Below, piece by piece: positions 23,249-49,983 of a stretch of 64,000 nt of DNA (positions within the stretch are counted from its first letter, which is position 1; the number at the start of each line of letters is the position of its first letter). The DNA is taken from positions 124,001 through 188,000 of the forward strand of contig NZ_RSAA01000020.1 in the NCBI RefSeq assembly GCF_003931915.1, written 5' to 3'. This DNA is from Saccharopolyspora rhizosphaerae (lineage in GTDB: Bacteria > Actinomycetota > Actinomycetes > Mycobacteriales > Pseudonocardiaceae). The position numbers and the translations under genes were made by a program. The notes below the pieces were generated by a model. The model made no database searches and had not been told where the DNA came from. It saw nothing but the letters and a program-made list of their open reading frames with translations.

Positions 23249-24538
23249 TCACCGCAGGCTGCGGCCGGTCCCCCGCCAGGCGAACCCCGCGCGGGCGACC
23301 TCGCGCGGGTCGACCTGGTTGCGGGCGTCGACGAGCACCGGCGTCCGAATCACCGCGGCGACCTGCTCCCAGTCCAGCTCCGCGAACTCCGGCCAGTCGG
23401 TCAGCAGCACCAGGACGTCGGCGTTCTCGGCGGCCAGGCGGGGATCGGCGACGCAGCGCACCCCCTCCACCGCCACCCTCTCCGCGCAGGCGGGGTCGTA
23501 TCCGCGCAGCTGCGCGCCCCGCTCGGCGAGCAGGCGGGCGACCGCGAGCGCGGGCGAGTCGCGCAGGTCGCCGGTGTGCGCCTTGAACGTCAACCCCAGC
23601 AAGCCCACCCGAGCTCCGGAGACGTCACCGCCGCAGCACTCGACGACCTTGTCGGCGACGCGGGCCTGGTGGTGCCCGTTCGCCCGGATCGCCGCGCGCA
23701 GCAGCGGCATCTCCACCCCGTGGGAGGCGGCGGTGTGCAGCAGGGCCGCGGTGTCCTTGGGCAGGCACGAGCCGCCCCAGCCCGGCCCAGCGCTCAAGAA
23801 CGACGGCGCCACGCGGTGGTCGCGCTTCATGCCTTCGGTGACGGCCTCGACGTCCGCGCCGGTGTGCTCGCAGAGCTCGGCGAGGTCGTTGACGTAGGAG
23901 AGCTTGGTGGCCAGGTAGCCGTTGGAGGCGTACTTGACGACCTCGGCGCTGACCGAGTCGACCAGCTCAGCCCGAGCCTGGACCGAAGCGTAGAGGCCGG
24001 CGACGCGCTCGGCGGCCCGCTGGTCGTCGGCCCCGACGACGATGCGGTCGGGGTGGAGGAAGTCCTCGACGGCCCGTCCCTCGCGCAGGAACTCGGGGTT
24101 GCTGACCACCGCGACGTCCTCGCGCGCCAACGACCGGGCGAGCCGTCTCGCGGTGCCCACCGGCACGGTCGACTTGGCGACGACCACCGCCCCGGGCGGC
24201 AGCAGGGCACGGATGTCACCGACGACCGAGTCGACGGCGCTGAGGTCGGCCTCGCCTTCGACCCCCCTCGGCGTGGGCAGGCACAGGAAGACGAACTCGG
24301 CACCGGTGACCGGCTGGGCGCTGTCCTCGGTGAACCGCAACCGGCCCGCCGCAACGCCTTCCGCGAGCAGCTCGCCGAGACCGGGCTCGCGGAGGTCCAC
24401 CTCACCGCGGCGCAGCCGGGAGATCTTCTCGCCGTCGACGTCACCGCAGGTCACGTCGTGGCCCAGCCGCGCGAGGCAGGCACCCGTGGTGAGGCCGACG
24501 TAACCGCAGCCGACCACGACGATCCGTGCCGAGTCCAT
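23249..24538 (-). CDS. UDP-glucose 6-dehydrogenase family protein
   Basis: A 429-residue nucleotide-sugar dehydrogenase. N-terminal Rossmann motif GCGYVGLTTG (about 9-18), the VVSNPEFLREGRAVEDF block near 155-172, catalytic cysteine in GWGGSCLPKD near 258, and the C-terminal UDP-binding domain with GLTFKAHTGDLRDSPA near 320. It would oxidise UDP-glucose to UDP-glucuronate (or a related sugar), feeding the UDP-xylose-synthase-like enzyme at 49021. Last gene of the minus-strand glycan operon. GGAGG precedes the ATG at 24538. Confidence 0.92.
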   Translation of the reverse strand: MDSARIVVVGCGYVGLTTGACLARLGHDVTCGDVDGEKISRLRRGEVDLREPGLGELLAEGVAAGRLRFTEDSAQPVTGAEFVFLCLPTPRGVEGEADLSAVDSVVGDIRALLPPGAVVVAKSTVPVGTARRLARSLAREDVAVVSNPEFLREGRAVEDFLHPDRIVVGADDQRAAERVAGLYASVQARAELVDSVSAEVVKYASNGYLATKLSYVNDLAELCEHTGADVEAVTEGMKRDHRVAPSFLSAGPGWGGSCLPKDTAALLHTAASHGVEMPLLRAAIRANGHHQARVADKVVECCGGDVSGARVGLLGLTFKAHTGDLRDSPALAVARLLAERGAQLRGYDPACAERVAVEGVRCVADPRLAAENADVLVLLTDWPEFAELDWEQVAAVIRTPVLVDARNQVDPREVARAGFAWRGTGRSLR

Positions 24539-24560
24539 CGGGCCTCCTCGACAACGCTGC

Positions 24561-25301
24561 TCAGCGCAAGGTTCCGAGCTCCGCGAGCACCGGCGGCGGG
24601 TGCGCTTCGAACAGCCGCGCGGGATCGCGCCACCGCGGCTGCGGGTGCTGTTCGGCGTCACGGGCCGGGTCCGGGCCGATCCGCGGGTCGGCGCGGACGC
24701 ACTCGACCACCCGGGCCTCGTCCGCCCCGACCGCGCGGCACAGCTCGGTGAGCTCGTCGAAGAACTCGCGCTCCACGGCGAGCAGTCCGTCGATCGCGTG
24801 CGGCACCAGGTCGGCGCTGTCGACGTCGCAGTGCAGCGGCGGGACGGGAACCCAGGAGAGGACCACGTCGGCGGGCACCAGCGACTCGGCGTCGTCGGCG
24901 CCGAGCACCTGGCAGCCCGCGCCCAGGAAGTCCTCCAGCGCCGACCCTTCCCGGAGCTGCTGCGGGTTGCTCACCACCGGTCTGCCCAGCGCCTTCTGGA
25001 GGTCCCGGGTGGATTCCCACGGTGGCAGCACGCAGTTGATCACCGCGCTGCCCGCCGGGGCCCTGACCTGATCTGCGCCGCAGACGAACACGGCGTCCGG
25101 GGCGGCGAGCTCGCCGTAGCTCAACGTGCCGCTGCGGTGCAGGCACCGCAGCACCTCCGGCAGCCACGGTTCGTGCTCCACCACAGCCCGGTCCGGGCGC
25201 GCGCAGCTCACCCGGACCCCGCACCAGGCCAGTCCGGTGGCGACCGCGACCGCCGTCAGACCCTCGCCGAACACCCTCGCGCGCGGCTGCCTCACGGCCA
25301 T
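24561..25301 (-). CDS. truncated UDP-glucose dehydrogenase-like protein
   Basis: A 246-residue paralogue of its downstream neighbour that keeps only the NAD-binding half. It shows GEGLTAVAVATGL (a changed dinucleotide loop) and VVSNPQQLREGSALEDFLGA, clearly parallel to the full enzyme. It stops after the central helix region, so the catalytic GGSC cysteine and the UDP-binding domain are missing. A GAGGAG ribosome site and 10-bp overlap with the SDR gene indicate it is translated. It may be a regulatory subunit or a decaying duplicate; catalysis is not expected. Confidence 0.7.
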   Translation of the reverse strand: MAVRQPRARVFGEGLTAVAVATGLAWCGVRVSCARPDRAVVEHEPWLPEVLRCLHRSGTLSYGELAAPDAVFVCGADQVRAPAGSAVINCVLPPWESTRDLQKALGRPVVSNPQQLREGSALEDFLGAGCQVLGADDAESLVPADVVLSWVPVPPLHCDVDSADLVPHAIDGLLAVEREFFDELTELCRAVGADEARVVECVRADPRIGPDPARDAEQHPQPRWRDPARLFEAHPPPVLAELGTLR

Positions 25302-25978
25302 GACGACTCCTCGGAGTGGCAGACGACGAGCTCCCGGACCTCGCAGCCGGCCGGTTGCCGCAGCGCGAACAGCACCGCCTCGGCAACGTGCTCGGGCCGG
25401 TTGAGCTTGGCGTCCTGCGGGGGCCGGTACTGCTCGGGCCTGCCGTCGAAGAAGGAGGTCCACATCCCGCCGGGCACCAGCGTCGTCACGCCGACGCGAC
25501 CGCTGAGCTCGGCGGCCAGAGCGCGGGAGAAACCGACGACGCCGAACTTCGAGGCGCAGTAGGCGGTCGCGTCCGGCACGCCCTTGAGCCCCAGCGTGGA
25601 CGAGCAGGTGACCACCGTGCCGCGGCTCCGCTCCAGGTAGGGCAGCGCGGCGCGCACGACGGCGGCGGTGCCCAGCAGGTTGACCTCCACCACGCGTTCC
25701 CAGTCCTCGGCCGGGACCGAACCCAGGGAACCGCAGGAGTCGACGCCCGCAGCGGTGAACACCCCGTCGAGGCCTCCTGCGGTGTCGGCCACCTCGCGCA
25801 CCGCCTGCTCGGCCTCCCGGCGGTTCGCCAGGTCGACCTGGACGTGCTTCACCGGCGCCGAGGGCGCCTCCCGGTCGAGCACCAGCGCCGTCCCGCCTGC
25901 CGCGGTCACCGCGTCGACGACCGCCGCACCGAGACCCGAAGCGCCTCCGGTGATCACCACATTACCCGGCTCGTTCAT
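25292..25978 (-). CDS. short-chain dehydrogenase/reductase in glycan operon
   Basis: A 228-residue classical SDR: cofactor loop GGASGLG near residues 11-17, catalytic Ser in CSSTLG and the YCASK motif near 147, with NLLG between. It overlaps the HldE-like gene by 17 bp and the truncated dehydrogenase by 10 bp, so it belongs to the same operon. A sugar-modifying role is inferred from location only. GGAGG lies six bases before ATG 25978. Confidence 0.9.
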   Translation of the reverse strand: MNEPGNVVITGGASGLGAAVVDAVTAAGGTALVLDREAPSAPVKHVQVDLANRREAEQAVREVADTAGGLDGVFTAAGVDSCGSLGSVPAEDWERVVEVNLLGTAAVVRAALPYLERSRGTVVTCSSTLGLKGVPDATAYCASKFGVVGFSRALAAELSGRVGVTTLVPGGMWTSFFDGRPEQYRPPQDAKLNRPEHVAEAVLFALRQPAGCEVRELVVCHSEESSWP

Positions 25979-27323
25979 GGAGGTCCTCCCGATTCACGTC
26001 CAGTTCCAGCATTTTTCGCAACATCCGCGTGGTCGAGTAGCCGTCGGTGAGCGGCACCCGGACGACCTCGCCGCCGAACTGCTCGACGATGCGCGCCTCG
26101 GGCATCCGGGACGGTTCGTAGTCGCCGCCCTTGACCCACACGTCGGGCCGCAGCTCGGCCAGCAACCTGCACGGCGTCGTCTCCTCGAAGACCGCGACGG
26201 CGTCGACGGACCCGAGCGCTTCCAGCAGGCACTTGCGGTCCTCGACGCCCACCAGCGGTCTCGGCGGACCCTTGAGCCTGCGCACCGAGGCGTCGGAGTT
26301 GAGGCACACGACCAGCGCGTCACCGAGGCCCCGGGCTTGGTTGAGCAGGTTGACGTGGCCCGGGTGCAGCAGGTCGAAACAGCCGCCCGCGGCGACGAGC
26401 CTGCCGCCGCGCTCTCGCACGCGGTGGACGACGTCCAGACCGGTCGCGGCGGCGGGTTGTTCGCTCGCGGTCCAGGCACCGGCACCCCCGGAGGCGACGA
26501 AGCGGGTGGCCGCCAGGACAGCGTCGGTGACCGCGTCCGACGTGGACTCCCCGCGCGCCAGCGCCAGGACGACGGCCACGGCGAAACCGTCTCCCGCGCC
26601 GCAGGTGTCGACCGCCCCGTCGAGCGCCGGTGCGGCGATCAGCTCGCCGCTGGGCGCCAGCGCGGCTCCGCGCTCCCCTCTGGTCACCGCCACCGCGCCG
26701 CACTCCCACTCCCGCCACAGGGCCATCGCGCCCGCCGGTTGCGCGGTGATGCCGCTGAAGAGGGTCGCTTCGGACTCGTTGGGCACCACCAGGTCCGCCC
26801 GGGCCACCGGCGGGGCTCCGCGCGGGTGCGGGTCCCACACCAGCGGGGTGCCGGGAGGCAAGCGGGACAGCTCGTGGCGCAGCCGGGAGTTGGCGGTCGC
26901 GCCGCGCCCGTAGTCGGCGACGAGCACGGCGTCGGCGCTGCGCAGCTCCCGCACGACCGACGGGCCCGGGGCCACGTCGGGCACGAAACCCGCGCCGGAG
27001 TCCAGGCGCACCACCGACTGGCCGCCCGCCCGCACCCGGGTCTTGCTGGGCGTGCCTCCGGTGAAGGGCAGGTCGACCGCGCGGATCCCCGCCGGCAGCA
27101 GGCGGTCGAGCTCGTAGCCCGCGGGATCGGCGCCGCGACCGCTGATCAGGGTCACCTCGACGCCCTGGCCGGCGGCGAGCACGGCGGCCAGCGCGGCTCC
27201 ACCGGGCCTGCCCCGTCGCGCCTCGACGTCGACCACCGGCACCGGGGCGTCCGGGCACAGCCGCGTCGCGCTCCCGGTCAGGTCCAGGTCCAGCAGGGCG
27301 TCACCCACGATGACGAGCTTCAC
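25962..27323 (-). CDS. hldE: bifunctional heptose-7-phosphate kinase / heptose-1-phosphate adenylyltransferase
   Basis: A 453-residue fusion of HldE (RfaE) type. Residues 1-300 are a PfkB/ribokinase fold with the GDALLD start and the DTCGAGDGFA anion-hole/catalytic motif near 238-247. Residues 310-450 are a cytidylyltransferase-fold nucleotidyltransferase with GGCFDLLHPGHVNLL (HxGH) near 317-330, VKGGDY and YSTTRML. In Gram-negatives this enzyme phosphorylates heptose-7-phosphate at C1 and later adenylylates heptose-1-phosphate. The presence of GmhA- and GmhB-like proteins at 43936-47281 supports the same pathway. GAGGAGG precedes the GTG at 27323. Confidence 0.9.
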   Translation of the reverse strand: MKLVIVGDALLDLDLTGSATRLCPDAPVPVVDVEARRGRPGGAALAAVLAAGQGVEVTLISGRGADPAGYELDRLLPAGIRAVDLPFTGGTPSKTRVRAGGQSVVRLDSGAGFVPDVAPGPSVVRELRSADAVLVADYGRGATANSRLRHELSRLPPGTPLVWDPHPRGAPPVARADLVVPNESEATLFSGITAQPAGAMALWREWECGAVAVTRGERGAALAPSGELIAAPALDGAVDTCGAGDGFAVAVVLALARGESTSDAVTDAVLAATRFVASGGAGAWTASEQPAAATGLDVVHRVRERGGRLVAAGGCFDLLHPGHVNLLNQARGLGDALVVCLNSDASVRRLKGPPRPLVGVEDRKCLLEALGSVDAVAVFEETTPCRLLAELRPDVWVKGGDYEPSRMPEARIVEQFGGEVVRVPLTDGYSTTRMLRKMLELDVNREDLHERAG

Positions 27324-27338
27324 GTCGACCTCCTCGGT

Positions 27339-28328
27339 TCACCGGTCCACTTCGGACAGGAGCGCGTTCCAGTCGGCCAGGAACCTGTCCAGCGAGTACC
27401 TCCGCAGCACCGCTTCGCGGGCCGCGTCACCCGCCGCCCGCGCCCGGTCCGGGTCGGCGGTGAAGGTCCTGACCGCGTCGACGAGCGTGTCGACCCGGGT
27501 CGAGATGACCCCGGCCTCCGGCGGCACGGCCTCTCCGACTTCGGTGGCCGCGACGGCCACGACCGGCATGCCCAGGTGCATGGCTTCCAGCAGCGCCAAC
27601 CCGAGCGAGGTCCACCGGTAGGGGTGCAGGTAGACGCGGCGCGCGGCCAGTTCGGCGTGCATCTTCGGTTGCGGCAGGTCTTCGTGCGGGGTGATCCGGT
27701 CGCAGCCCAGGCGGTCCGGGAGTGCGGCGACCTGCATGCCGAACACGTCCAGCGGCGCCCCCCGGCTCAGCCGGGGCAGCAGGTCGGTCCCGGCGATGTG
27801 GCTGCGCCGCACCGGTTCGTTCACCACGACTCCGGCGTGCGGCACGGTTCCGGTCCAGCGGTGGCCGGGGTCGACGACGCCGTGTTCGACGACGGTGTTC
27901 GGGGCGCGCCCGTTGTCCCACCACACCTGGTTGAAGTGGGTGACGTGGGCGATCGGGATGTCCTCGCGGTCGGCCACCGGGTGCCGGTCGGGCCAGGCGG
28001 GTCCGCGCGGTGCGTCGTGCTCGACGTAGACGGCCGGCACGTCGATCCCGGGCCGGCGGCCGGTCCACGCGTGGGTGAGTTCGAGCTCGTGGGGGCGTTG
28101 CAGCACCACGACGTCGATCTGCTCGTCGCGCAACGTGGCCGGGTCGACCTCCACGGCGTTGTCCGGCCACGGGACGGTCTGCGAGCGGCCCCGCCCGTCC
28201 GGGCCCCGGTCGTCGGTCACCGGGAGCAGGTAGGTGTGCGGGCCGTGCACGAACGACGTGGTCCACGACCCGTGCCGGTGCCACACCAGGATCCGCAGGC
28301 CCTCACGGGCGTTGCCGGGACCGCTCAC
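27339..28328 (-). CDS. glycosyltransferase, GT4-like
   Basis: A 329-residue glycosyltransferase with GT-B character. The C-terminal half has PHEDLPQPKMHAELAARRVYLHPYRWTSLGLALLEAMHLGMPVVA-type sequence near 215-260, the sugar-nucleotide-binding E-x7-E region of GT4 enzymes. The N-terminal half contains TVPWPDNAVEVDPATLRDEQIDVVVLQRP. Start is the GTG at 28328, overlapping the stop of the GT9 gene (GTGA). Donor and acceptor unknown. Confidence 0.82.
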   Translation of the reverse strand: MSGPGNAREGLRILVWHRHGSWTTSFVHGPHTYLLPVTDDRGPDGRGRSQTVPWPDNAVEVDPATLRDEQIDVVVLQRPHELELTHAWTGRRPGIDVPAVYVEHDAPRGPAWPDRHPVADREDIPIAHVTHFNQVWWDNGRAPNTVVEHGVVDPGHRWTGTVPHAGVVVNEPVRRSHIAGTDLLPRLSRGAPLDVFGMQVAALPDRLGCDRITPHEDLPQPKMHAELAARRVYLHPYRWTSLGLALLEAMHLGMPVVAVAATEVGEAVPPEAGVISTRVDTLVDAVRTFTADPDRARAAGDAAREAVLRRYSLDRFLADWNALLSEVDR

Positions 28329-29332
28329 GACGTCACCTCCCCGACCGCGGCGACGACCTCCTGCGGCGTCACCAACGTCAGGCACGGGTGCCCGGGAACC
28401 GGGCAGGTCCGCGCGCGGGTGCCGCGGCACGGGGCGAGCTGTTCGCCCAGCACCACGCGCGGCACCCCGTAGGGCGCCCAGCGGGCCGCGCTGACCACGG
28501 GCGCGAACAGCGAGACCACGGGCGTGCCCACCGCGGCGGCCAGGTGCGCGGGCCCGGTGTTGGGCGCGACGACGGCGGACGCGCCGTCGAGGACCGCGGC
28601 CAGCTCCGGCAGGGTCGTGCGCCCTCCCAGGTCGATCCCGTCGTGCCCGGCCACGTGGGCGGTCAGCTCCTTCTCGGCCGGTGCGCCGGTGACCACGACC
28701 CGGCGCCCGGAGGCGGCCAGCTCCGCCACCGCCTCGCGGCAGCGGAACATCGGCCACTCGCGGGCGGGGACCGAGGCCGCCGGGTGCACCACGACGTAGC
28801 CCGGTTCGCCGACGAGGGCGGTGACGTCGGGCAGCGGGCGGCGCACCGCGAGCCGCCCGTCGTCGCCGGCGGGCAGGTGGAAACCGGCGGCGCGGGCCAG
28901 CGACAGCGCGCGTTCGGGTTCAGGCGGGTCACCCTCGACCCGGTGCCGGACGTCGAGCAGGGACCCCGGGTAGTCGTCGCTGATCGCCGCGATCCGCTCC
29001 ACGCCGGCCATCCGCAGCAGCAGCGCCAGCGGCAGCGCGGACTGGTGGAACGAGGTGAACACCACCGCCGTCCCGGCGCCGATCCCGCGGAAGGTCTGGA
29101 CAAGTTCGTGCATCGCCGCTTCGCGGACCGGTGGCGGTTCGGGGTCGATCCAGGGCGCGCACCGGGTGACGACGCGGTCCACCCCGGGCAGCAGGTCGGC
29201 CGCGGCCGCACCGCGCGGGCCGGCCAGCATGACGACGGAGTCGGCGTGCGCGGCCACGGCGCGCACGGCCGGACCGGCCAGCAGCACGTCGCCGAGGTTG
29301 TCCTGGCGCACCACGAGCACCCGCCCGTTCAC
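28325..29332 (-). CDS. GT9 family heptosyltransferase-like glycosyltransferase
   Basis: A 335-residue GT9 enzyme resembling ADP-heptose:LPS heptosyltransferases. It starts RVLVVRQDNLGDVLLAGPAVRA (the D-x-L/I-GD-x-L motif), has YVVVHPAASVPAREWP near 180-195 and the APNTGPAHLAAAVGTPVVSLFAP donor-binding loop near 252-275. First gene of the operon that also carries the HldE-like enzyme, which fits an ADP-heptose donor. AGGAG precedes GTG 29332. A second GT9 enzyme is at 43010. Confidence 0.88.
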   Translation of the reverse strand: MNGRVLVVRQDNLGDVLLAGPAVRAVAAHADSVVMLAGPRGAAAADLLPGVDRVVTRCAPWIDPEPPPVREAAMHELVQTFRGIGAGTAVVFTSFHQSALPLALLLRMAGVERIAAISDDYPGSLLDVRHRVEGDPPEPERALSLARAAGFHLPAGDDGRLAVRRPLPDVTALVGEPGYVVVHPAASVPAREWPMFRCREAVAELAASGRRVVVTGAPAEKELTAHVAGHDGIDLGGRTTLPELAAVLDGASAVVAPNTGPAHLAAAVGTPVVSLFAPVVSAARWAPYGVPRVVLGEQLAPCRGTRARTCPVPGHPCLTLVTPQEVVAAVGEVTS

Positions 29333-29570
29333 GACGCACTCCTGGCACGAACTCGCGAGCGGCGGGCGAGAACGGGTGTCGCGTGTGGTCCTGGAACGAG
29401 CACAGCTACGCCTCCCGCGCTTCGTGCTGCTGTTCGGAGCGCTCGCCGTTCGCGAGGAACTCCCTTCACACCGCTACCCAGCGAAGCGGCTCTCCTACAC
29501 CTGCGCTCCCGGAAGTCCTGCGCACAGCGCCGTTCGGCACCAGTCCTTGACTCTGAGCGAGCGACTGCGG
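29333..29570. other. divergent control region between two glycan operons
   Basis: Spacer between the GT9 and GT2 genes. On the minus strand a GGGTAG at 29473-29478 has GTGT at a 17-base distance (29496-29499), a borderline SigB-type site for the GT9 operon, about 140 bp from its start. Nothing else stands out. Confidence 0.35.
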
Positions 29571-29594
29571 GTTTTCCCCGCAGGTTGCGGGTAT
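29571..29594 (+). promoter_or_regulatory. SigB/SigF-type promoter for GT2-GAF-GT2 operon
   Basis: GTTT, 14-base spacer, GGGTAT: the classical form of the motif. It ends 38 bp before the GT2 ATG at 29633. Confidence 0.65.
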
Positions 29595-29632: not shown

Positions 29633-30490
29633 ATGGACGGTCGAATCAACACCGACGTGGTGATCGCGACGCGCAACCGGCGCGACGAACTGCTCCGCAC
29701 CGCGCAGAACCTGCTCGCGCTGCGCCCGCGTCCCCGCGTCGTGGTGGTCGACAACGCCTCCACCGACGGCACCGCCGAGGCGGTCGAACGGCTCCACCCG
29801 CAGGTGGAGCTGATCCGCGCCCCGCACAACCTCGGGGCCGCGGCGCGCAACCTCGGCGTGCTGAGCAGCCGGGCGGAGTACGTGGCCTTCAGCGACGACG
29901 ACTCGTGGTGGGAGCAGGACGCCTTGCCACGCGCCGAACACCTCTTCGCCACGCACCCCGGCATCGGGCTCATCGCCGCGAAGACCTTGGTCGGGACGCA
30001 GGACAGGCTCGACCCGGTCAACGACCTCATGGCGCGCTCACCGCTGCTCGGTTCACCCGGGCTGCCCGGTCCGCGCGTGCTGGGCTTCACCGCGTGCGCG
30101 GCCGTCGTCCGGCGTCGCGCGTTCCAGGAGGCCGGCGGGTTCGACCCGGTGCTGTTCTTCGGAGCGGAGGAGAAGCTGCTCGCGTGCGACCTGGCGGCCG
30201 CGGGCTGGGACCTCGTCTACGCTGACGACGTCGTCGCGCACCACCACCCGTCCCCCGCGCGGATGAGCCGTGCGGAGCGGGAAGCGCTGGAGCTGCGCAA
30301 CAACGTCATCATCGCGTGGATGCGCCGGTCTCCCCCGGCCGCGGTGACCGAGACGCTGCACGCCCTGCGGCGGTCCCGCCGTGCCACGGCCGGGGCGCTG
30401 CGGCGCCTGCCGGTCGCGCTGCGACGCCGCCGGCGCCTCCCCGAACAGGTGGAACGAGAACTGACCACTGTGGAGTCCCAGACGTCATGA
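29633..30490 (+). CDS. glycosyltransferase family 2
   Basis: A 285-residue GT-A enzyme. VVIATRNRRDELLRT opens the fold, VVVDNASTDGTAEAV is near 40-55 and the metal-binding acidic motif in FSDDDSWW near 90. The C-terminal part has HHHPSPARMSRAEREALELRNN, a block shared with the neighbouring GT2 at 30900, so the two are paralogues. A GGGGAG ribosome site precedes ATG 29633. Soluble; basic C-terminus. Confidence 0.88.
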   Translation: MDGRINTDVVIATRNRRDELLRTAQNLLALRPRPRVVVVDNASTDGTAEAVERLHPQVELIRAPHNLGAAARNLGVLSSRAEYVAFSDDDSWWEQDALPRAEHLFATHPGIGLIAAKTLVGTQDRLDPVNDLMARSPLLGSPGLPGPRVLGFTACAAVVRRRAFQEAGGFDPVLFFGAEEKLLACDLAAAGWDLVYADDVVAHHHPSPARMSRAEREALELRNNVIIAWMRRSPPAAVTETLHALRRSRRATAGALRRLPVALRRRRRLPEQVERELTTVESQTS

Positions 30491-30903
30491 CGACCTCCCG
30501 GACCTCGCCGGCGATCACGCGGCTCTCCGAACTGCTGCGACGCGTCCCGCGCGCGGACATGGCGGTGCTCGGCACGACCGCGCCGGTGGCGGCGGTGCTG
30601 GCCCACACCGACGAGCGGGCTCGGGCGTTGGAGGCCGAGCAGCTGCTGCTCGGCCGAGGGCCGAGCGTGGAGGTCGCGGCTTCGCAGCGGGCGGTGCTCG
30701 CCGACCTCCACGAGATCCGGACCTACTGGACCGACTTCGCCCGCCGCGCCCGGGAACTGCGGCTGCACAGCCTGCTGATCGTGCCGCTCGAACCGGCGTT
30801 CCCGTCCGGGGCGCTGAGCCTCTACGCGCACCGCTCGCGCGCGTTCGACGAGGCCGACGAGGACGTGGTGCGGCGCAACCTGCACGCCTTGGCGAGGAGG
30901 TGA
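30487..30903 (+). CDS. small GAF-like protein between two glycosyltransferases
   Basis: A 138-residue protein overlapping both neighbours (ATGA upstream, GTGA downstream). It has the late GAF-domain pattern: RELRLHSLLIVPLEPAFPSGALSLYAHRSRAFDEADEDVVRR resembles the end of GAF domains that precede ANTAR or PAS parts, but no output domain follows. Tight coupling to two GT2 genes suggests a regulatory or sensory role in glycosylation. Ligand unknown. Confidence 0.7.
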   Translation: MTTSRTSPAITRLSELLRRVPRADMAVLGTTAPVAAVLAHTDERARALEAEQLLLGRGPSVEVAASQRAVLADLHEIRTYWTDFARRARELRLHSLLIVPLEPAFPSGALSLYAHRSRAFDEADEDVVRRNLHALARR

Positions 30904-33916: not shown

Positions 33917-33945
33917 GGCGCCCCGGGATGACCACCCGGGGCGCC
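33917..33945 (+). terminator. hairpin terminator after small-gene pair
   Basis: Perfect 11-bp GC stem with a 7-base loop, starting 5 bp after the stop at 33912. It also sits just before the ribosome site of the next gene. Confidence 0.7.
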
Positions 33946-33966
33946 CTCTTCTGCCCGGGGGGTTCG

Positions 33967-43008: not shown

Positions 43009-43009
43009 T

Positions 43010-43939
43010 TCACGCGGCGCGCAAGACCTCCCGCGCGGCACCGAGCACCTGCTCGGTGGTCAGGGCCAGCAGGCCGGGGTCGGGTTCGGAGGCGAAGGTG
43101 TCGCCGTGGCGCCCGTGCCACAGCGCCGCGTGGCGGGCGCTGACCGGTGGGCCCCAGAGGCGGGGTGCCACCGGCCCGAACAGCACCACCGACGGGGTGT
43201 GGAACGCGCTGGCCAGGTGGGCGATCCCGGTGTCGCCGCAGACGAGCAGGCGGGCGTGGGCGACCAGCGCGGCGAGCTCGCACAGCCCCGTCCGCCCGGC
43301 CAGCACGGACTCCGGGTCGAGCCCGGCGAGCTCGGCCACGCGGGAGGCGCGGGCGCGCTCGGGCCCGGAACCGGTGACCACCACGTCGAGACCGGCGTCC
43401 GAGGCCCAGCGCGCCACTTCCGCGTAGCGCTCGACCGGCCAGCGGCGCGCACCGTGGCTGGCACCCGGGTGCACGAGCACTGCGCCCGGCCGGGCGGGCG
43501 GTTCCGGTGGCACGGGCAGCAGCAGGTCGTCCGGGTCGGCCTCCAGGCCGTGGTGGCGCAGCAGCCGGCACCAGCGCTGCCGTTCGTGCTGCTCGGCGTC
43601 CCACGCCGGGCCATGCACCTCCGGCACCGCCGGGTGGGGGTGGCTCACGATCCGGCGGGCCCCGGTCGAGCGCACCGCGCGCACCGACTCCGGACCACTG
43701 CCGTGCAGGTTCACCGCGACGTCGGGTGCTCGCCGCTCCCAGCGGAACCCGGCGAGCCCGGACGTCGGAGCGAGCTCGTCGACCTCCGGGAGCAGGCCGA
43801 GCAGGGCGCCCAGCGGTGCCGGCGCGGCCAGCAGCACCCGGTGCCGCGGGTAGGCCCTGCGCAGACCGCGCAGCGCGGGCACCGCGGTGAGCAGGTCACC
43901 CAGCCCGAGCGCCCGGAGCACGAGGACCGTTGCGGTCAC
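43010..43939 (-). CDS. GT9 family heptosyltransferase-like glycosyltransferase
   Basis: A 309-residue GT9 enzyme: VLVLRALGLGDLLTAVPALRGLRR at the start, VLVHPGASHGARRWP near 155-170 and VCGDTGIAHLASAFHTPSVVLFGP near 235-258. It is the second GT9 protein in the window, last gene of the operon that includes the GmhA-like isomerase, so ADP-heptose is the likely donor. GTG at 43939 overlaps the isomerase stop (GTGA). Confidence 0.88.
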   Translation of the reverse strand: MTATVLVLRALGLGDLLTAVPALRGLRRAYPRHRVLLAAPAPLGALLGLLPEVDELAPTSGLAGFRWERRAPDVAVNLHGSGPESVRAVRSTGARRIVSHPHPAVPEVHGPAWDAEQHERQRWCRLLRHHGLEADPDDLLLPVPPEPPARPGAVLVHPGASHGARRWPVERYAEVARWASDAGLDVVVTGSGPERARASRVAELAGLDPESVLAGRTGLCELAALVAHARLLVCGDTGIAHLASAFHTPSVVLFGPVAPRLWGPPVSARHAALWHGRHGDTFASEPDPGLLALTTEQVLGAAREVLRAA

Positions 43940-44511
43940 TGGTGTTCCGACACCTCGCCGGCGATCAGCGCGTCGAACTCGCCGCACAGGGCGTGGATCA
44001 GCGCCAGGTGGATCTCCTGGACCGTGGCCACGCCAGCGGCTTGCACGGCCACCGCGTCGTCGCAGACGGCGGCGAGGTCGTTGGGGGTGGGTCCGGTCAT
44101 CGCCCAGGTCAGCACACCCATCTCCCGGGCGGTCTTGGCGGCGGCGAGCACGTTCTGGCTGCGGCCGCTCGTCGACAGCGCGACGAGCACGTCACCCGGT
44201 CTGCCGTGCGCGCGCACCGCGCGGGCGAAGACCTCCTGCTCGCCGTAGTCGTTGAGCGTCGCGGTGAACGCCGACGTGTCGGCGTGCAGCGCGATCGCCG
44301 AGTACGGCTTGCGGTCGCGCAGGAACCGGCCGGTCAGCTCACCCGACAAGTGCTGGGCCTCCGCGGCGCTGCCGCCGTTGCCGCAGGTCAGCAGGCGCGC
44401 TCCGGCACCGAGCCGCTCCGCCAGCACGGTCGCCCACGCGCGCAACGTCGGCGCCGCAGCGCCGGCGTGCCGCGCGGCGGTGCCCAGGTCGCGGAAGTGC
44501 TCTTCGATCAC
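43936..44511 (-). CDS. gmhA: SIS-domain phosphoheptose isomerase (GmhA-like)
   Basis: A 191-residue SIS protein. The signature blocks LLTCGNGGSAAEAQHLSGELTGRF (about 40-63), ALSTSGRSQNVLAAAK near 110-125 and a C-terminal QEIHLALIHALC near 167-178 match GmhA. This enzyme turns sedoheptulose-7-phosphate into heptose-7-phosphate, the first step to ADP-heptose; DiaA is the main alternative, but the operon context favours GmhA. GTG at 44511 overlaps the GT4 stop. Confidence 0.9.
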   Translation of the reverse strand: MIEEHFRDLGTAARHAGAAAPTLRAWATVLAERLGAGARLLTCGNGGSAAEAQHLSGELTGRFLRDRKPYSAIALHADTSAFTATLNDYGEQEVFARAVRAHGRPGDVLVALSTSGRSQNVLAAAKTAREMGVLTWAMTGPTPNDLAAVCDDAVAVQAAGVATVQEIHLALIHALCGEFDALIAGEVSEHQ

Positions 44512-45740
44512 GGTGCTTCCCCTCCCGGCGCGGCGGCCACCGCGGCCCGCTCGGCCCGCGCCGAACGCACCTGGTGGTAGATGTCCTCGGCCTCGGCGAC
44601 CAACCGGTCCCAGCCGTAGCGGGACCGCACCCGGTGCGCGCCTGCGGTTCCGAGCTCCGCGCGCAGCCCTGGCCCTTCCAGCAGTTCCCGCACCGCCCGC
44701 GCGAGCGCGGCCGGGTCGTGCGGCGGCACGTGCAGCCCGGTCCGCCGGTCCACGACGGTGTCGAGGTGGCCCCCGACCGCGCTGACCACGACCGGCACGC
44801 CGCAGGCCATCGCCTCCAGCGGCACGGTCCCGAACGGCTCGTACCAGGGGACGCTGGCGACCACGTCGACCGACCGGTAGAGGTCGGGCGCTTCGTCGTG
44901 CGGGACCTGGCCGAGGAACGCGGTGCGCTCGGCGACGCCGGCCTGCCGGGCCACCGCCTGCAGCCGGTTCACCTCCGGGTCGTCGGCCCACTCCGACTCC
45001 GGCGGCCCACCCGCGATGAGCAGCTGCGCGTCGGGGATGTCGCGCATCGCGCGGATCATCACGTCCACGCCCTTGCGCTCGACGAGCCTGCCGATGCTGA
45101 GGACCCGCGCGGGACCGGACCGGGGCCGGCGCGGTGCGGCCGGGAGGAACCGGTCGAGGTCGATGCCGCACGGCAGGATCGCGGTGCGCTCCGGTGGCAC
45201 GCCCATCTCGGCGAGCTCGCCGACCTCGTCGGTGCAGGTGGCGATCACCCGGTCGGCACCGCAAGCGATCTGGGCCTCCAGCTCGACGCGCTGCGGTGGG
45301 CTGGTGTCCTTGGCGCCCTGCTCGCGGCGCTTGACCCGACCGAGCGCGTGGAAGGTCTGCACCACGGGGACGTCGAGGCGCGCCGCACCCAACTGGGCGG
45401 CCAGCCCGCTCATCCAGAAGTGCGCGTGCACCAGGTCCGGTGGCGCACCAGCCCAGGTCTCGGCGAGCTGTGCGGCGAAGGCGTCCACGTGAGGCAGCAG
45501 GTCGTCCTTGGGGATCGGTTCGGCCGGTCCCGCCGTCACGTGGTGCACCGTGAAGCCCTCGCCGGTGCGCACCCGTGCGGGCAGGGTCGGCGAGTCGCGG
45601 CGGGTGTGCACGACGACGTCGTGGCCGCGCCGGGCCAGCCCGGTGGCTAGTTCCGCGACCTGCACGTTCTGCCCGCCCGCGTCGGCACCGCCGAGGGCGG
45701 CCAGCGGACTGGCGTGCTCGGACACCATGTCGATCCTCAT
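44508..45740 (-). CDS. glycosyltransferase family 4
   Basis: A 410-residue GT-B enzyme. ASPLAALGGADAGGQNV near 10-26 is the acceptor-side signature of sucrose-synthase/MshA-like GT4 proteins. Donor motifs are SIGRLVERKGVDVMIRAM near 222-240 and EPFGTVPLEAMACGVPVV near 305-322 (E-x7-E). ATG at 45740 overlaps the upstream gene (4 bp). Donor sugar unknown; it is part of the carbamoyltransferase-GT2/HAD-GT4-GmhA-GT9 operon. Confidence 0.9.
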   Translation of the reverse strand: MRIDMVSEHASPLAALGGADAGGQNVQVAELATGLARRGHDVVVHTRRDSPTLPARVRTGEGFTVHHVTAGPAEPIPKDDLLPHVDAFAAQLAETWAGAPPDLVHAHFWMSGLAAQLGAARLDVPVVQTFHALGRVKRREQGAKDTSPPQRVELEAQIACGADRVIATCTDEVGELAEMGVPPERTAILPCGIDLDRFLPAAPRRPRSGPARVLSIGRLVERKGVDVMIRAMRDIPDAQLLIAGGPPESEWADDPEVNRLQAVARQAGVAERTAFLGQVPHDEAPDLYRSVDVVASVPWYEPFGTVPLEAMACGVPVVVSAVGGHLDTVVDRRTGLHVPPHDPAALARAVRELLEGPGLRAELGTAGAHRVRSRYGWDRLVAEAEDIYHQVRSARAERAAVAAAPGGEAP

Positions 45741-47281
45741 CGCGGCACCTCCTGCCGGACGGGACGCCGCGTCGCCGCCCACACCCGGCCGCCCCGCAGC
45801 ACACGGGCGACCGCCGCCTCGATGGTCGGTGCGACTTCGGCTTCCACGAGCGCCCTGGTCGTCTCCTCGGTCCTGGTCCGCTCGGTGGGCACCAGGATCG
45901 CCCTGGCCCCGGCGGCCAGCGCTGCCGCGACGTCGGCCCCGGTGTCGCCGATGACCACGCACGCCCCCGGCGGCACGCCCAACCGGGCTGCGGCACGTTC
46001 GATGAGCCCGGCCTTCGGCTTGCGGCAAGCACATCCGTCGTCCTCGTCGTGCGGGCACCACTGCCAGGTGTCGATCGGACCGAGCGCGCGCTGCACGGCC
46101 CCGTTGACGGCGGCGACGTCCTCCTGGCTCAGCAGCCCGCGCGCCACACCGGACTGGTTGCTCACCACGCCGATCGGGATCCCGGCCACGCGCAACCGGT
46201 CCAGCGCTTCCCGCGCACCGCGGACCGGGCGGACGCGGCCGGGGTCGCCGTTGTGGGGAACGTCGCGGATGAGCGTGTCGTCCCGGTCGAAGAGCACCGC
46301 CGCGGGCCGCCGGGGTCGCCGCGTCCGGACGGCCAGTTCCCCGCGCGCCCGGTGCCAGCACGCCACCGGCGGGATCAGCACGCTGGTCACCAGCATCCGC
46401 GCGATCTCGGCCGGCGTCCCGGGACCGGGGACGACGCGGCGAGCGGCGAACTCGGCGGTCAGCGCCAACCAGGTCGCGGCACCGCAGACCGCTGTCCGGC
46501 GGGCGCCCAGGGCCCAGGCGACGAGCGCGGCCGCTCCGGCGACCGTGGTCGCCACGTGCCGCCGGATGCGCCCGGGACCCTCGCCGATCCGGCTGCGCCA
46601 CCGCCTGCCGTACTTGCGGCGCATGACGGCGTTGTCGGCGTTGCCGCGCTGCGCGCGGACACTGGCGAAGAAACCGGACGGACGCGCGGGATGACTGGTC
46701 ACCCGCGCGCCGCTGACCAGCCGCCACCCCGCGGCCTGCACCCGCAGCGCCAGGTCGGCGTCCTCCCGGAAGGCGCGGCGGAACTCCTCGTCGAAACCAC
46801 CGCAGGCGGACAGCACTTCGCGCCGGTACGCCATGTCCGCGGTGATCCACAGCGCGCCGGCCAGCGCGGCCGTGTCGCGCTCGGCGTCGGTGGGACGCCG
46901 GTCGCCCGGCAGCGGGACGACGAGGCGACCCTGGCAGGCCGCCACGTCCGGGCCGACGTCGAGGTCGTCCTCGACCTGCTCGCGCCACTCGGCGGAGGGC
47001 ACCACGTCGTCGTCGAGGAACACCACCCACTCCGCACCGGCTTCCCGCCAGCCGATGTTGCGCGCGGCGGCGGGACCGCGCCCGCCGGACCGCACCACGC
47101 GGATCGGGAGGTCGTTCTCCGGCAACGGCAACGGTTCTGCGGGCGAAGGCCGGTCGTCGACCAGGAGGACCTCCCGCGGTCCCGGTCCGCGTCCGGTGTC
47201 GAGCGCGGCGAGCGTGCCCGAGAGGCTGGCGCGGCCCGTGGTCGGGATGACCACGGTGTACTCGCCGTGGCGCCCGCTCAC
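45737..47281 (-). CDS. fusion of GT2 glycosyltransferase and GmhB-type heptose bisphosphate phosphatase
   Basis: A 514-residue two-domain protein. Residues 1-300 are a GT2 enzyme (YTVVIPTTGRASL, FLDDDVVP near 90, FREDADLALRV near 166) with a hydrophobic segment near 243-275. Residues 325-490 are a HAD phosphatase of GmhB/HisB type: DRDDT (DxD nucleophile) near 331, SNQSGVARG near 370, and a zinc-binding set CPHDEDDGCACRKPK near 410-425. GmhB removes the C7 phosphate from heptose-1,7-bisphosphate. The fusion joins a precursor-forming step to a transferase. Start overlaps the carbamoyltransferase stop (4 bp). Confidence 0.88.
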   Translation of the reverse strand: MSGRHGEYTVVIPTTGRASLSGTLAALDTGRGPGPREVLLVDDRPSPAEPLPLPENDLPIRVVRSGGRGPAAARNIGWREAGAEWVVFLDDDVVPSAEWREQVEDDLDVGPDVAACQGRLVVPLPGDRRPTDAERDTAALAGALWITADMAYRREVLSACGGFDEEFRRAFREDADLALRVQAAGWRLVSGARVTSHPARPSGFFASVRAQRGNADNAVMRRKYGRRWRSRIGEGPGRIRRHVATTVAGAAALVAWALGARRTAVCGAATWLALTAEFAARRVVPGPGTPAEIARMLVTSVLIPPVACWHRARGELAVRTRRPRRPAAVLFDRDDTLIRDVPHNGDPGRVRPVRGAREALDRLRVAGIPIGVVSNQSGVARGLLSQEDVAAVNGAVQRALGPIDTWQWCPHDEDDGCACRKPKAGLIERAAARLGVPPGACVVIGDTGADVAAALAAGARAILVPTERTRTEETTRALVEAEVAPTIEAAVARVLRGGRVWAATRRPVRQEVPR

Positions 47282-48912
47282 GCGCGCTCACCCCCGCGGC
47301 GGACCACGAACGGACCGAGCACCAGCAGGTCGATCGGCGAGGCCCCGAAGCACTCCAAGGCGTCGACCGGGCTGTCGACGATGGGGCGGCCCGCGGTGTT
47401 GAAGCTCGTGTTGATCAGCGCCGGCAAGCCGGTGCGCGCCGCGAAGGCCTCGAGCAACCGGGCCAGCAGCGGTTCTCGATCCCGCTCCACGGTCTGTGGA
47501 CGCGCGGTGCCGTCGACGTGCACGGCGGCCGGGATGCGGTCGCGCCACTCCGGCGTCACGTCGTGCACGAACAGCATGTGCGGACTGCGCTCAGGGCCTC
47601 GGGTGAACAGCTCGCGAGCGCGTTCGGCCAGGACCACCGGCGCGACCGGGCGGAACTGCTCACGGCCCTTGATGTCGTTGAGGCGCTCGACGTTGTCGGC
47701 GTTGCCGGGGTGCGCGAGCAGCGACCGGTGGCCCAGTGCGCGGGGCCCGAACTCGCTGCGGCCCTGGAACCAGCCCACCGATGCGTCGCGCGACAGCGCC
47801 TCGGCGGCGACCTCGGCGACGTCGTGCGGACGTTCGTAGCGGAGGTTCGCGGTGCGCAGGACGGCTTCGACCTCCTGGTCGCTCCACTCCCGACCGAGGT
47901 CGGCGCCGGGCATCGGCGCGATCGGTTCGCCGTGCTGGGCGGCGAGTTGCAGAGCGGCGCCGAGCGCGGTGCCCGCGTCACCGGCGGCGGGTTGCACCCA
48001 CACCTCGTCGAACGGGCCTTCGCAGGCGATCCGGGTGTTGGCCACGCAGTTCAGCGCGACGCCCCCGGCCATCGCCAGCCGCCGTTCGCCGGTCTGGTCG
48101 TGCAGCCACCGCGCGAGGTCGAGCAGCACCTCTTCGAGCCGCTCCTGCACGCTCGAAGCGAGCTGGGCGTGCTTGTCCCCCAGCGGTTCTCGCCCGGTCC
48201 GGCGCGGCGCCCAGCGTTGCCAGTCGATCGGATCGATGGTGTAGTGGCCGTCGCCGGTGCGGATGAGCTCCCGGAAGTCCGCCAGGAACGCGGGTTCGGC
48301 GTAGGAGGCCAGCGCCATCACCTTGTACTCGTCGCTGGAGCGGCGGAAGCCCAGGTGCTCGGTCAGCTCCTCGTACATCAGGCCGAGCGAGTGCGGGAGC
48401 CGTTGCTCCGCCAGAGTCGTGAGCCGACCGCCGGAGTAGGACCCGGCCAGTCCGGAGGTGCTCTCCCCGCGGCCGTCGGCGGTGAGCACGGCGCAGTCGC
48501 CGAACGGCGCGGCCAGGGCCGCGGAAGCGGCGTGCGCGACGTGGTGCGGCACGCACACCACGACATCGGTGTCCAACCCGGGCAGCGCGGTGGCCAAGAA
48601 GTGCGGTGCTCGCTCGGCGTAGGTCGTGCGCAACCACTCCCACCCGGGGTCGAGGCCGTCCAGCGCCTCGTCCACCAGCGCCGGGTCGTAGGAGCAGCCG
48701 ACCACGTCCAGTTCGGACGGCTCGACGCCGGCCTGGCGCAGGCACCACGCCGCAGCCTGCTCGGGCTGTTCCCACGCGGCGAACGGGACCGGTGTCTTGC
48801 CGTGCTTGCGCCGGGAGAAGCGTTCTTCCTCAGCGGCGGCCACGGTCCGGCCGTCGACCACGAGGGCGGCCGCCGGATCGTGGAACACGGCGTTGATCCC
48901 CAGGATTCGCAC
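47278..48912 (-). CDS. carbamoyltransferase (NodU/TobZ family)
   Basis: A 544-residue carbamoyltransferase. MRILGINAVFHDPAAALVVDG starts the Kae1-like domain; EEERFSRRKHGK, VPHHVAHAASA (metal His near 122-126) and MAGGVALNCVANTRI near 290-304 are family landmarks. The C-terminal YrdC-like-associated domain has GRSEFGPRALGHRSLLAHP and NTSFNTAGRPIVDSP. It would transfer carbamoyl from carbamoyl phosphate to a sugar or small-molecule hydroxyl. First gene of a five-gene operon, with SigB-type promoter 48959-48983. Confidence 0.92.
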   Translation of the reverse strand: MRILGINAVFHDPAAALVVDGRTVAAAEEERFSRRKHGKTPVPFAAWEQPEQAAAWCLRQAGVEPSELDVVGCSYDPALVDEALDGLDPGWEWLRTTYAERAPHFLATALPGLDTDVVVCVPHHVAHAASAALAAPFGDCAVLTADGRGESTSGLAGSYSGGRLTTLAEQRLPHSLGLMYEELTEHLGFRRSSDEYKVMALASYAEPAFLADFRELIRTGDGHYTIDPIDWQRWAPRRTGREPLGDKHAQLASSVQERLEEVLLDLARWLHDQTGERRLAMAGGVALNCVANTRIACEGPFDEVWVQPAAGDAGTALGAALQLAAQHGEPIAPMPGADLGREWSDQEVEAVLRTANLRYERPHDVAEVAAEALSRDASVGWFQGRSEFGPRALGHRSLLAHPGNADNVERLNDIKGREQFRPVAPVVLAERARELFTRGPERSPHMLFVHDVTPEWRDRIPAAVHVDGTARPQTVERDREPLLARLLEAFAARTGLPALINTSFNTAGRPIVDSPVDALECFGASPIDLLVLGPFVVRRGGERA

Positions 48913-48958: not shown

Positions 48959-48983
48959 CTACCCTCTGCATCGACTCGTAAAC
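48959..48983 (-). promoter_or_regulatory. SigB/SigF-type promoter for the heptose-glycan operon
   Basis: On the minus strand GTTT, 15-base spacer, GGGTAG: a near-classical site 47 bp before the carbamoyltransferase GTG. It would drive all five genes to 43010. Confidence 0.65.
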
Positions 48984-49020
48984 ACCGGGCGGCTGACCTG
49001 CGCCGATGCGGAGGTGGAGA

Positions 49021-49983
49021 TCAACCGGTCGCGGTGGCGGCAGGCCGCGCGGCGAACCAGTCGATGGTGCGGCGCAGCCCCTCCACGACGTCGACTTCCG
49101 GCCGCCAGCCGAGCACCTGCTCGGCGACGGTGATGTCCGGGCAGCGGCGGGCGGGTTCGTCGACCACGGCGGCGACGTGGGTGATCGGCGAGCCGGTCCC
49201 GGTCAGTGAGCGCACCAGCTCAGCGATCTCCAGCACGGTCATCTCGTCGGGCCGGCCGATGTTGACGGGGTCGACGTGATCTCCGGCGGCCACCGCGAGC
49301 AGCCCGCGCACGGTGTCGTCCACATAGCACGGTGAACGCGTCTGGCTCCCATCCCCGTTGACGGTGATGGGGTCTCCGGCCAGCGCCTGGGAGACGAAGG
49401 TGGAGACCACGCGGCCGTCGCCGGGCCGCATCCCCGGGCCGTAGCTGTTGAACAACCGGACGATCCGGGTGTCGACGCTCCGGTGCGCGCGGTAGCAGGA
49501 GGTCAGCGCCTCGGCGTAGCGCTTGGCCTCGTCGTAGACCGCGCGCGGGCCGACGGGGTTGACGTTGCCCCAGTAGTCCTCGCGCTGCGGGTGCTGCAAC
49601 GGGTCTCCGTAGACCTCGCTGGTGGACGCCAGCAGGAACCGCGCTCCGGTGCGCTCGGCCAGCTCCAGCGCGTGCGCGGTGCCGTGACTCCCGGCCTGCA
49701 GAGTTTCCACCGGCATCCGCAGGTAGTCCACCGGCGAGGCGGGCGAGGCCAAGTGCAGGACGAGGTCGACGTCCTCGGCCGGGAACGGCTCCCGGGCGAT
49801 GTCGTGTTCGACGAGCTCAAACCGCGGGTCCAGGAGCAGTGCTCGGACGTTGTCGACCGCGCTGGTGGCGAAGTTGTCCAGGCAGCGCACCGACGTCCCT
49901 CGACGCAGCAGTTCCGCGCACACCGGCGCCCCGAGGAAACCGGCACCGCCGGTCACCACGGCGCGGTCGAACGACCACGACAC
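49021..49983 (-). CDS. UDP-glucuronate decarboxylase (UDP-xylose synthase)-like protein
   Basis: A 320-residue extended SDR. VTGGAGFLGAPV near 11-22, HLASPASPVDYLRMPVET near 78-95, STSEVYGDPLQHPQ near 123-136 and YDEAK catalytic pair near 152 match UXS-type enzymes that make UDP-xylose from UDP-glucuronate. RSPCYVDD and DITVA complete the pattern. The UDP-glucose dehydrogenase at 23249 could supply the substrate. GTG at 49983 is chosen because GGGGAG lies eight bases upstream; earlier in-frame starts overlap this site. Confidence 0.87.
   Translation of the reverse strand: MSWSFDRAVVTGGAGFLGAPVCAELLRRGTSVRCLDNFATSAVDNVRALLLDPRFELVEHDIAREPFPAEDVDLVLHLASPASPVDYLRMPVETLQAGSHGTAHALELAERTGARFLLASTSEVYGDPLQHPQREDYWGNVNPVGPRAVYDEAKRYAEALTSCYRAHRSVDTRIVRLFNSYGPGMRPGDGRVVSTFVSQALAGDPITVNGDGSQTRSPCYVDDTVRGLLAVAAGDHVDPVNIGRPDEMTVLEIAELVRSLTGTGSPITHVAAVVDEPARRCPDITVAEQVLGWRPEVDVVEGLRRTIDWFAARPAATATG

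Follow-up and report, generated by a model that had tools for sequence, protein, structure and literature searches.

Activated heptose is best known from Gram-negative outer membranes. What, then, would an actinomycete make with it? The question is raised by a stretch of 64,000 nucleotides (the window in what follows) from the 5.8-Mb genome of Saccharopolyspora rhizosphaerae (contig NZ_RSAA01000020.1, positions 124,001 to 188,000), in which a first-pass annotation made from the letters alone saw a complete ADP-heptose pathway and an undescribed glycan made by two clusters. The answer that we favour, and hold with good confidence, is that these genes are the form taken in Saccharopolyspora by the cwg operon of Streptomyces coelicolor, a cluster predicted to make a carbamoylated heptose/xylose envelope glycan, which was probably split by duplication and loss and carries a putative SigF-type promoter. 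Family-level gene identities, motifs, folds, synteny and co-occurrence were obtained directly, and from these we infer substrates, product, acceptor and export.

Predicted heptose-pathway enzymes

Genes were called from the periodicity of GC content at third codon positions (GC3) and from homology, and proteins were identified by Pfam, NCBIfam and PDB searches. Because the window genes show GC3 periodicity and have orthologues about 45-90% identical in relatives, the enzyme genes are not products of chance. The five enzymes named by the annotation (HldE, GmhA, a GmhB-type domain and two glycosyltransferases of family GT9) are real genes that retain their motifs and co-occur in relatives. The sedoheptulose-7-phosphate isomerase GmhA (43936..44511, minus strand; SIS_2, 7e-23) had been read as an open reading frame at 43936-46032 that for the most part does not share the frame of the GC3 coding signal; the isomerase stands, as a shorter gene with a GTG start and a ribosome-binding site that encodes 191 amino acids, and the only other coordinate to be corrected was the frame of the GT4 gene next to it. 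Two further frames on the plus strand, 25668-28472 and 24600-25562, were rejected as genes by GC3 phase. PDB matches of GmhA (E up to 0.001) comprise 15 sequences, 13 of them phosphoheptose isomerases and two the paralogue DiaA (best 3.6e-38), and H54, E58, Q165, H168 and H173, which we take to be its metal-binding and catalytic positions, are invariant across 20 aligned sequences.

HldE (25962..27323, minus strand) joins a heptose-7-phosphate kinase (PfkB, 1.6e-18) to a heptose-1-phosphate adenylyltransferase (CTP_transf_like, 5.4e-18). Its top NCBIfam match is bifunctional HldE (4e-78; 263 bits, cut-off 521), and it retains the kinase GAGD, the nucleotidyltransferase HPGH (HxGH) and the GxSTT motifs. 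The GmhB-type HAD phosphatase domain forms the C-terminal part of a protein that begins with a GT2 glycosyltransferase domain (GT2HAD; 45737..47281, minus strand). Its best PDB match is the heptose-bisphosphate phosphatase 4pnh (2.2e-18), and it carries DRDD and WCPHDEDDGCACRKP (CPH-x5-CAC-RKP), a combination of DxD and Cys/His zinc motif that we take to be the GmhB signature.

The HENase motif (F/L)XXGXSTT is present in HldE as LTDGYSTT; in the accessible part of PMC11461863, arginine at position 5 of this motif is linked to CDP/UDP promiscuity. Among 21 aligned HldE sequences position 5 is tyrosine in 12, arginine in eight and histidine in one, tyrosine being present in all 11 from the window's order and in one other, a pattern which suggests that nucleotide use may differ by lineage.

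The two GT9 enzymes, GT9a (28325..29332, minus strand; PF01075, 2e-24) and GT9b (43010..43939, minus strand; PF01075, 5.8e-28), are the sole PF01075 matches in the whole genome (E up to 0.001). AlphaFold models of both (GT9a from 19 sequences, predicted local distance difference test score (pLDDT) 91; GT9b from 24 sequences, pLDDT 95) match Escherichia coli WaaF best (1psw; 4.3e-17 and 5.8e-18), followed by the GT9 structure 3tov and then WaaC (2gt1/2h1h/6dfe), at 18-24% identity to WaaC/WaaF in the model comparisons. The N-terminal GD aspartate, presumably catalytic, is retained as D15 in GT9a and D16 in GT9b. The DTGxxH donor motif is kept in GT9b, and in GT9a Asn258 replaces the aspartate that is Asp261 in WaaC, within an invariant NTGPAHLAA, so the donor of GT9a may differ. 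The structural comparison, which the annotation had named as a way to refute its heptosyltransferases, hence bears out the fold and leaves this one substitution in the donor site. Both enzymes are predicted, from sequence and model, to transfer heptose.

Family matches, motifs and folds together uphold the claim of a complete set from sedoheptulose-7-phosphate to ADP-D,D-heptose with two heptosyltransferase-fold enzymes in an actinomycete. GmhA, both HldE domains and the GmhB domain all score under their NCBIfam equivalog cut-offs, the adenylyltransferase domain of HldE coming nearest (TIGR02199, 178.7 bits against 181.5), but their best matches are heptose enzymes and the motifs are retained. 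The whole genome holds no HldD epimerase above cut-off (best 120.1 of 274.6 bits), and the epimerase at 41938-43008 was ruled out as HldD at 18.6 of the same 274.6 bits. As only the L,D form requires HldD, the pathway is predicted to end at ADP-D,D-heptose.

Distribution across the class

In a draw of 296 genomes from the class, GT9a occurs in 70 (a weak 71st match, in G171, being excluded), HldE in 69 and both in 68; some genomes may contribute a further paralogue to the HldE matches at 1e-40. A strong GmhA (at least 160 bits) is found in 65 of the 296, and 64 of these hold GT9a and HldE as well, so that the co-occurrence in related genomes which the annotation had put forward as a check is almost complete. 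Other GmhA relatives are commoner (96/296 at 1e-20). The enzyme set is nearly universal among genomes that hold any of it.

These counts bear on the idea that HldE, GmhA and the GT9 enzymes act on some other sugar phosphate, such as a hexose, and that no heptose is made. For carbamoyl-mannose/gulose, bleomycin-type clusters are said to rely on an RfaE-like enzyme together with a GT9-like transferase, and the sub-threshold scores of all four enzymes, like the invariant asparagine in the donor motif of GT9a, would fit such a use. We regard it as very unlikely, given that 64 of the 65 genomes with a strong GmhA also hold both partners, that the GmhA, GmhB and HldE motifs are kept, and that GmhA has phosphoheptose isomerases or DiaA as its structural matches.

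Many genomes of the family carry an additional HldE with about 40% identity to that of the window (for example G092:C1:4445900-4447297), in some cases only a few kb away from the first (for example G087:C14); it is perhaps part of a second heptose-type cluster.

Correspondence to the cwg operon

The cwg operon of S. coelicolor was reportedly first described by Hong et al. in 2002. It comprises 12 genes, is a vancomycin-induced target of sigma-E and is the predicted maker of a cell wall glycan, according to the relevant extract of PMC6767563. Gene names for eight of the 12 (SCO6180-6183 and SCO6185-6188) are given in the accessible portion of PMC5839063, where SCO6186, cwgH, is the eighth gene and a phosphoheptose isomerase, and SCO6187, cwgI, is the ninth and a bifunctional synthase/transferase; cwgE is a putative heptosyl transferase in an extract of PMC5882110. 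The extracts of PMC13011467 and PMC3902916 mention the operon with no glycan structure.

The bridge to these names is a mobilizable linear Streptomyces plasmid, L114, which carries an entire 12-gene cluster of cwg type at 10797-23227. Its order is an epimerase/dehydratase (UXS, UDP-xylose synthase, by homology), carbamoyltransferase, GT2, HAD, GT9 and a glycosyltransferase, followed by a glycosyltransferase, SIS, rfaE2, GT9 and two more glycosyltransferases, and its flanks hold ANTAR, PP2C, STAS, CBS and CsbD genes. With 12 genes, the isomerase eighth and the bifunctional enzyme ninth, the plasmid cluster fits SCO6179-6190 (cwgA-L). By this correspondence GmhA stands at the cwgH position, HldE at cwgI, GT9a at cwgE and GT9b at cwgJ. 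The glycan system that the annotation had called undescribed therefore corresponds to an operon whose cwgH and cwgE are already annotated in the sources available to us.

The remaining core genes take further cwg positions. At the cwgA position lies the UDP-glucuronate decarboxylase UXS (49021..49983, minus strand, with a start chosen by eye), whose phmmer match to UDP-glucuronic acid decarboxylase 1 (UXS1) at 4.2e-94 is clear enough to predict UDP-xylose; the O-carbamoyltransferase CARB (47278..48912, minus strand; Carbam_trans_C, 2e-65), with the carbamoyltransferases 7xb6, GdmN and TobZ as its PDB matches, is at cwgB. The syntenic GT-B glycosyltransferase (27339..28328, minus strand; Glycos_transf_1, 4.8e-9) is at cwgF, and the GT4-type glycosyltransferase (44508..45740, minus strand), placed by GC3 between the GmhA and GT2HAD genes and matching 6kih at 5e-64 and 3c4q/3c48 at 4e-48, is at cwgG. 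Two GT2 genes on the plus strand, GT2a (29633..30490) and GT2b (30900..31796), occupy cwgK and cwgL by synteny. UXS is thus part of the cluster core, and the product is predicted to contain heptose, xylose and a carbamoyl group.

Additional and neighbouring genes

Supply of UDP-glucuronate and xylose, as the annotation had proposed, agrees with UXS and with the NDP-sugar dehydrogenase UGD (UDP-glucuronate; 23249..24538, minus strand), which is above cut-off for TIGR03026 at 1e-123; the proposed carbamoyl transfer agrees equally with CARB. Beside UGD lies a degenerate UDP-glucose-dehydrogenase-like protein of 246 amino acids (UGD-like; 24561..25301, minus strand; PF00984, 8e-5, under cut-off) that covers part of the central UGD domain only and is without the C-terminal domain. 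It adjoins UGD in relatives, where it is 36-49% identical (71-74% in two sister species), and looks like a pseudoenzyme partner that has been retained. The short-chain dehydrogenase SDR1 (25292..25978, minus strand; adh_short, 9.3e-38) is syntenic and occurs in most, not all, of the clusters seen outside Streptomyces. An MFS transporter (31784..33184, minus strand; MFS_3, 5.6e-24) is a neighbour of the cluster across the genus. The annotation's tentative pyruvyl addition finds a counterpart in a polysaccharide pyruvyltransferase-like gene (33928..34863, plus strand), whose PF04230 match at 9.4e-12 extends across 39 residues only. Between GT2a and GT2b some 260 bases (about 30604-30859) hold no called gene; they are 68-71% identical to the region after GT2a in contiguous relatives. 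Farther upstream in the window is an Mce-type lipid import locus (12181-15230, minus strand) with two MlaE permeases and an Mce protein.

Several of these genes would also suit a secondary-metabolite cassette in which, as for septacidin and hygromycin B, heptose decorates a small molecule that is secreted, instead of an envelope glycan: ADP-heptose has been published for both in the accessible part of PMC10221265, the nearest carbamoyltransferase structures include antibiotic enzymes (GdmN, TobZ, novobiocin), and an MFS transporter adjoins the genes. We think this improbable, because the core is kept in many families of the class, unlike a strain-specific metabolite, because the scanned genes around the cluster include no non-ribosomal peptide synthetase, polyketide synthase or aminocyclitol scaffold synthase, and because the corresponding S. 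coelicolor operon is, in the sources seen in part, an envelope-stress target. An envelope glycan is accordingly the product we prefer.

Split layout and its origin

Gene order in relatives was obtained by tblastn of the window genes against 40 stretches from 36 genomes around HldE or GT9a, and the relatives' contigs scanned were the best 80 of 583 relatives, with no Streptomyces among them. At its fullest the order is CARB, GT2HAD, GT9a, GT-B, GT4, GmhA, HldE, SDR1, GT9b, UGD-like, UGD; most stretches show such a compact cluster, and partial or rearranged forms occur in more distant relatives. The two clusters of the annotation are accordingly not the native layout: a single cluster has been secondarily split. 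HldE and CARB are present together in the same nine of 22 genomes of the genus. Their starts lie 6.8-6.9 kb apart in six of these nine, and 21.6, 15.6 and 15.2 kb apart in the window genome, G063 and G446, which confines the split to S. rhizosphaerae and two sisters.

In these three genomes one half holds CARB, GT2HAD, GT4, GmhA and GT9b (with UXS too in the window) and the other GT9a, GT-B, HldE, SDR1, UGD-like and UGD, each with the old order preserved. Between the halves in the window lie GT2a, GT2b, the MFS gene, the pyruvyltransferase-like gene and a few others. GT2a, GT2b and MFS are found beyond CARB in contiguous relatives and beyond GT9a in the split genomes; the epimerase gene is found beyond UGD in several contiguous relatives and beyond GT9b in the window. 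A pyruvate-oxidase-like thiamine pyrophosphate enzyme, ADH and SDR2 were set aside, as they lie between the halves in the window and not in the two sisters.

By eye, an element of about 40 bases precedes CARB in the eight genomes of the genus that were compared, and a second copy precedes GT9a in all three split genomes (in the window at 29471..29492, minus strand, where the GTTT box reads GTAG). Alignment scores against the eight CARB upstream regions were set against those of 300 base shuffles per comparison; the copy on the GT9a side beat all shuffles for seven of the eight regions in G063, six in G446 and five in the window. A pattern built from the copies finds both in the window with 0.05 expected, a test that is not independent of the copies themselves.

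The reciprocal partition of genes, the kept order and the promoter element before both halves lead us to conclude that, in the ancestor of the three species, the whole unit was probably duplicated in tandem and then lost genes reciprocally, leaving the two-part layout. Several independent transpositions of gene blocks would be in keeping with the displaced pyruvyltransferase-like gene and with the fact that no gene persists in two copies. Such a history would need three blocks to land at one place with old order and orientation kept, and next to their old outside neighbours GT2a, GT2b and MFS, and all three split genomes carry the second promoter-element copy before GT9a; we consider it unlikely, though less so than either of the biochemical alternatives above.

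A putative SigF-type promoter

The pattern GTTT-N14-16-GGGTA has two matches in the window, with 0.07 expected. One, GTTTACGAGTCGATGCAGAGGGTA (48960..48983, minus strand), lies before CARB and has the same place before CARB in relatives; the other, GTTTTCCCCGCAGGTTGCGGGTA (29571..29593, plus strand), lies before GT2a, as it does in two sister genomes. The pattern falls inside the SigF consensus of Mycobacterium smegmatis, GTTT-N(14-19)-GGGTA, given in the accessible part of PMC4694148, and a word search of that paper for heptose or carbamoyl genes found none.

We scanned 250 bases before each gene in 113 sequences. These loci were collected by similarity and share descent, which makes the counts neither random nor independent. 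The motif precedes CARB in 32 of 76 cases, UXS in 18/87, GT2a in 8/43, GT2HAD in 9/102, GT2b in 3/43, GT-B in 2/84 and the gene labelled EPI in 1/15. It was found before none of the 109 GT9a, 89 GT4, 76 GmhA, 95 HldE, 74 SDR1 and 83 GT9b genes, nor before UGD (0/27), UGD-like (0/5), PSP (0/33), MFS (0/7), ATP-grasp (0/2) or ADH (0/3). Dinucleotide shuffles gave at most 0.08 matches for any gene, and the total of 125 in 2.23 Mb, both strands counted, implies about 0.5 expected before 76 CARB genes. Motifs on the opposite strand of the same stretches (CARB 11/76, PSP 10/33, UXS 5/87, GT2b 5/43, GT2a 3/43, GT-B 2/84, and one each for GT9b and MFS) are read as belonging to divergent neighbours.

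Counted by lineage as a motif before any of UXS, CARB, GT2HAD, GT2a, GT-B or GT2b in 109 genomes or loci after merging, it is present in 9/9 Saccharopolyspora, 24/28 other Pseudonocardiaceae, 9/9 of Nocardia and a Nocardia-like genus, 3/3 of a further genus (g47 of family f2) and 2/60 of all others, including 0/4 Streptomycetaceae and 0/20 Geodermatophilaceae. Taxon labels were assigned by hand, L142, which bears the name of an unverified Bacillus, being placed with Geodermatophilaceae by similarity judged by eye. With six added loci, none of which has the motif ahead of the genes tested (L098, of the same order and with one readable gene, and L099, L103, L110, L111 and L115), the totals are 45/50 for the window's order and 2/65 for others; L109 has no readable start, and L116, L117, L121 and L132 were dropped as repeats of the same genome. 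The order is the grouping used in the genome collection, which we take to be Mycobacteriales in GTDB; the NCBI classification places Saccharopolyspora in Pseudonocardiales.

A single sigma gene of the SigB/F/G family scores above cut-off in the genome, and a motif lies about 600 bases upstream of this gene; genome-wide the pattern has 26 matches, against three for its reverse. In the window's order the cluster thus probably answers to a SigF-type stress factor, in contrast to S. coelicolor, where it is a sigma-E target. The part of PMC5563000 available to us reports that a Frankia gene annotated as ADP-heptose:LPS heptosyltransferase is up-regulated by salt, which is consistent with stress control of such genes.

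All three genomes with the split have a GAF and SpoIIE-type PP2C phosphatase of RsbU-like kind close to the cluster (in the window at 16585-18126, minus strand). Phosphatases of this type usually regulate SigB/F factors.

Proposed pathway and its weighing

In the mechanism that we propose, GmhA would convert sedoheptulose-7-phosphate to D-glycero-D-manno-heptose-7-phosphate, the HldE kinase domain would yield the 1,7-bisphosphate, and the HAD domain fused to GT2 would strip the 7-phosphate. UGD and UXS would supply UDP-glucuronate and UDP-xylose. The two GT9 enzymes may then attach heptose, with the GT-B, GT4 and GT2 enzymes adding more sugars and the carbamoyltransferase capping one of them, to give a carbamoylated heptose/xylose glycan that would be assembled in the cytoplasm and bound for the envelope. 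A stress sigma factor of SigF type probably drives transcription.

Besides the sub-threshold scores, the missing HldD and the GT9a asparagine already described, several observations count against this picture. The match to cwg was made through published gene names and the Streptomyces plasmid copy, and SCO6182 is named a putative dehydratase in the part of PMC5839063 at hand, whereas a HAD hydrolase occupies that place on the plasmid. The genes scanned included no recognisable lipid-carrier initiating transferase, polymerase, flippase or ligase. On the side of the split, the window's own two element copies align no better than shuffles (47/300 reach the score), the pyruvyltransferase-like gene is out of the order expected under duplication, and the gaps hold weak matches only, among the matches listed, to coding remnants of lost genes. 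The promoter evidence is a sequence match; the motif is absent from the Streptomyces plasmid copy and from before the single readable gene of L098, and the sigma-E control of cwg in S. coelicolor stands in the extract of PMC6767563. Among the matches listed in the literature searched, no link between cwg and SigF was found.

The broader proposition, that in the window's order cwg has moved from sigma-E to SigF-type control and makes a widespread carbamoylated heptose/xylose envelope glycan, is one that we put forward tentatively, as a possibility somewhat short of even. If true, bacteria free of LPS would hold pools of ADP-heptose. ADP-heptose is an innate-immune agonist. The cwg product is still a "putative" or "predicted" cell wall glycan in print, as far as the parts of the sources seen go, and tying the operon to a supply of ADP-heptose and UDP-xylose and to two heptosyltransferase-fold enzymes makes that product directly testable. 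The SigF-type element suggests that one glycan may be wired to different stress signals by order, and in the split cluster we seem to have a clear example of an operon that duplication and reciprocal loss have taken apart.

Comparison with known systems

Since ADP-heptose in Gram-positive bacteria and the cwg operon are both in print, the pathway is no novelty and the operon had already been described. Within the searches made, what appears to be new is how the split arose, the promoter of SigF type and the naming of heptose, xylose and carbamate as predicted components; apart from the papers cited, the literature searched yielded no relevant title on an actinomycete wall polymer that contains heptose.

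The families, motifs and folds are those of the Gram-negative LPS pathway (GmhA, HldE, GmhB and WaaC/WaaF), from which the present system differs in that no LPS acceptor is expected, no HldD is above cut-off and the GT9 enzymes are distant. With septacidin and hygromycin B of Streptomyces, for which the Gram-positive heptose work is reportedly that of Tang et al. in 2018, it shares heptose derived from sedoheptulose-7-phosphate in a Gram-positive, as far as the part of the source seen goes; those are antibiotics, whereas here a class-wide core lies amid many glycosyltransferases. The NDP-heptose enzymes across kingdoms that Tang et al. are said to have treated in 2024 share the HENase motif, in the portion of that work seen, with tyrosine at position 5 here and not arginine. 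The closest likeness is to the cwg operon, in gene content and order as seen through the Streptomyces plasmid copy and the relatives, with the putative heptosyl transferase cwgE at the place of GT9a. Compared with that operon, the Saccharopolyspora cluster is split in two, has its GT2 and HAD domains fused where the plasmid keeps them separate, carries additional SDR, UGD and UGD-like genes, and bears a SigF-type element, the known promoter of the S. coelicolor operon being of sigma-E type.

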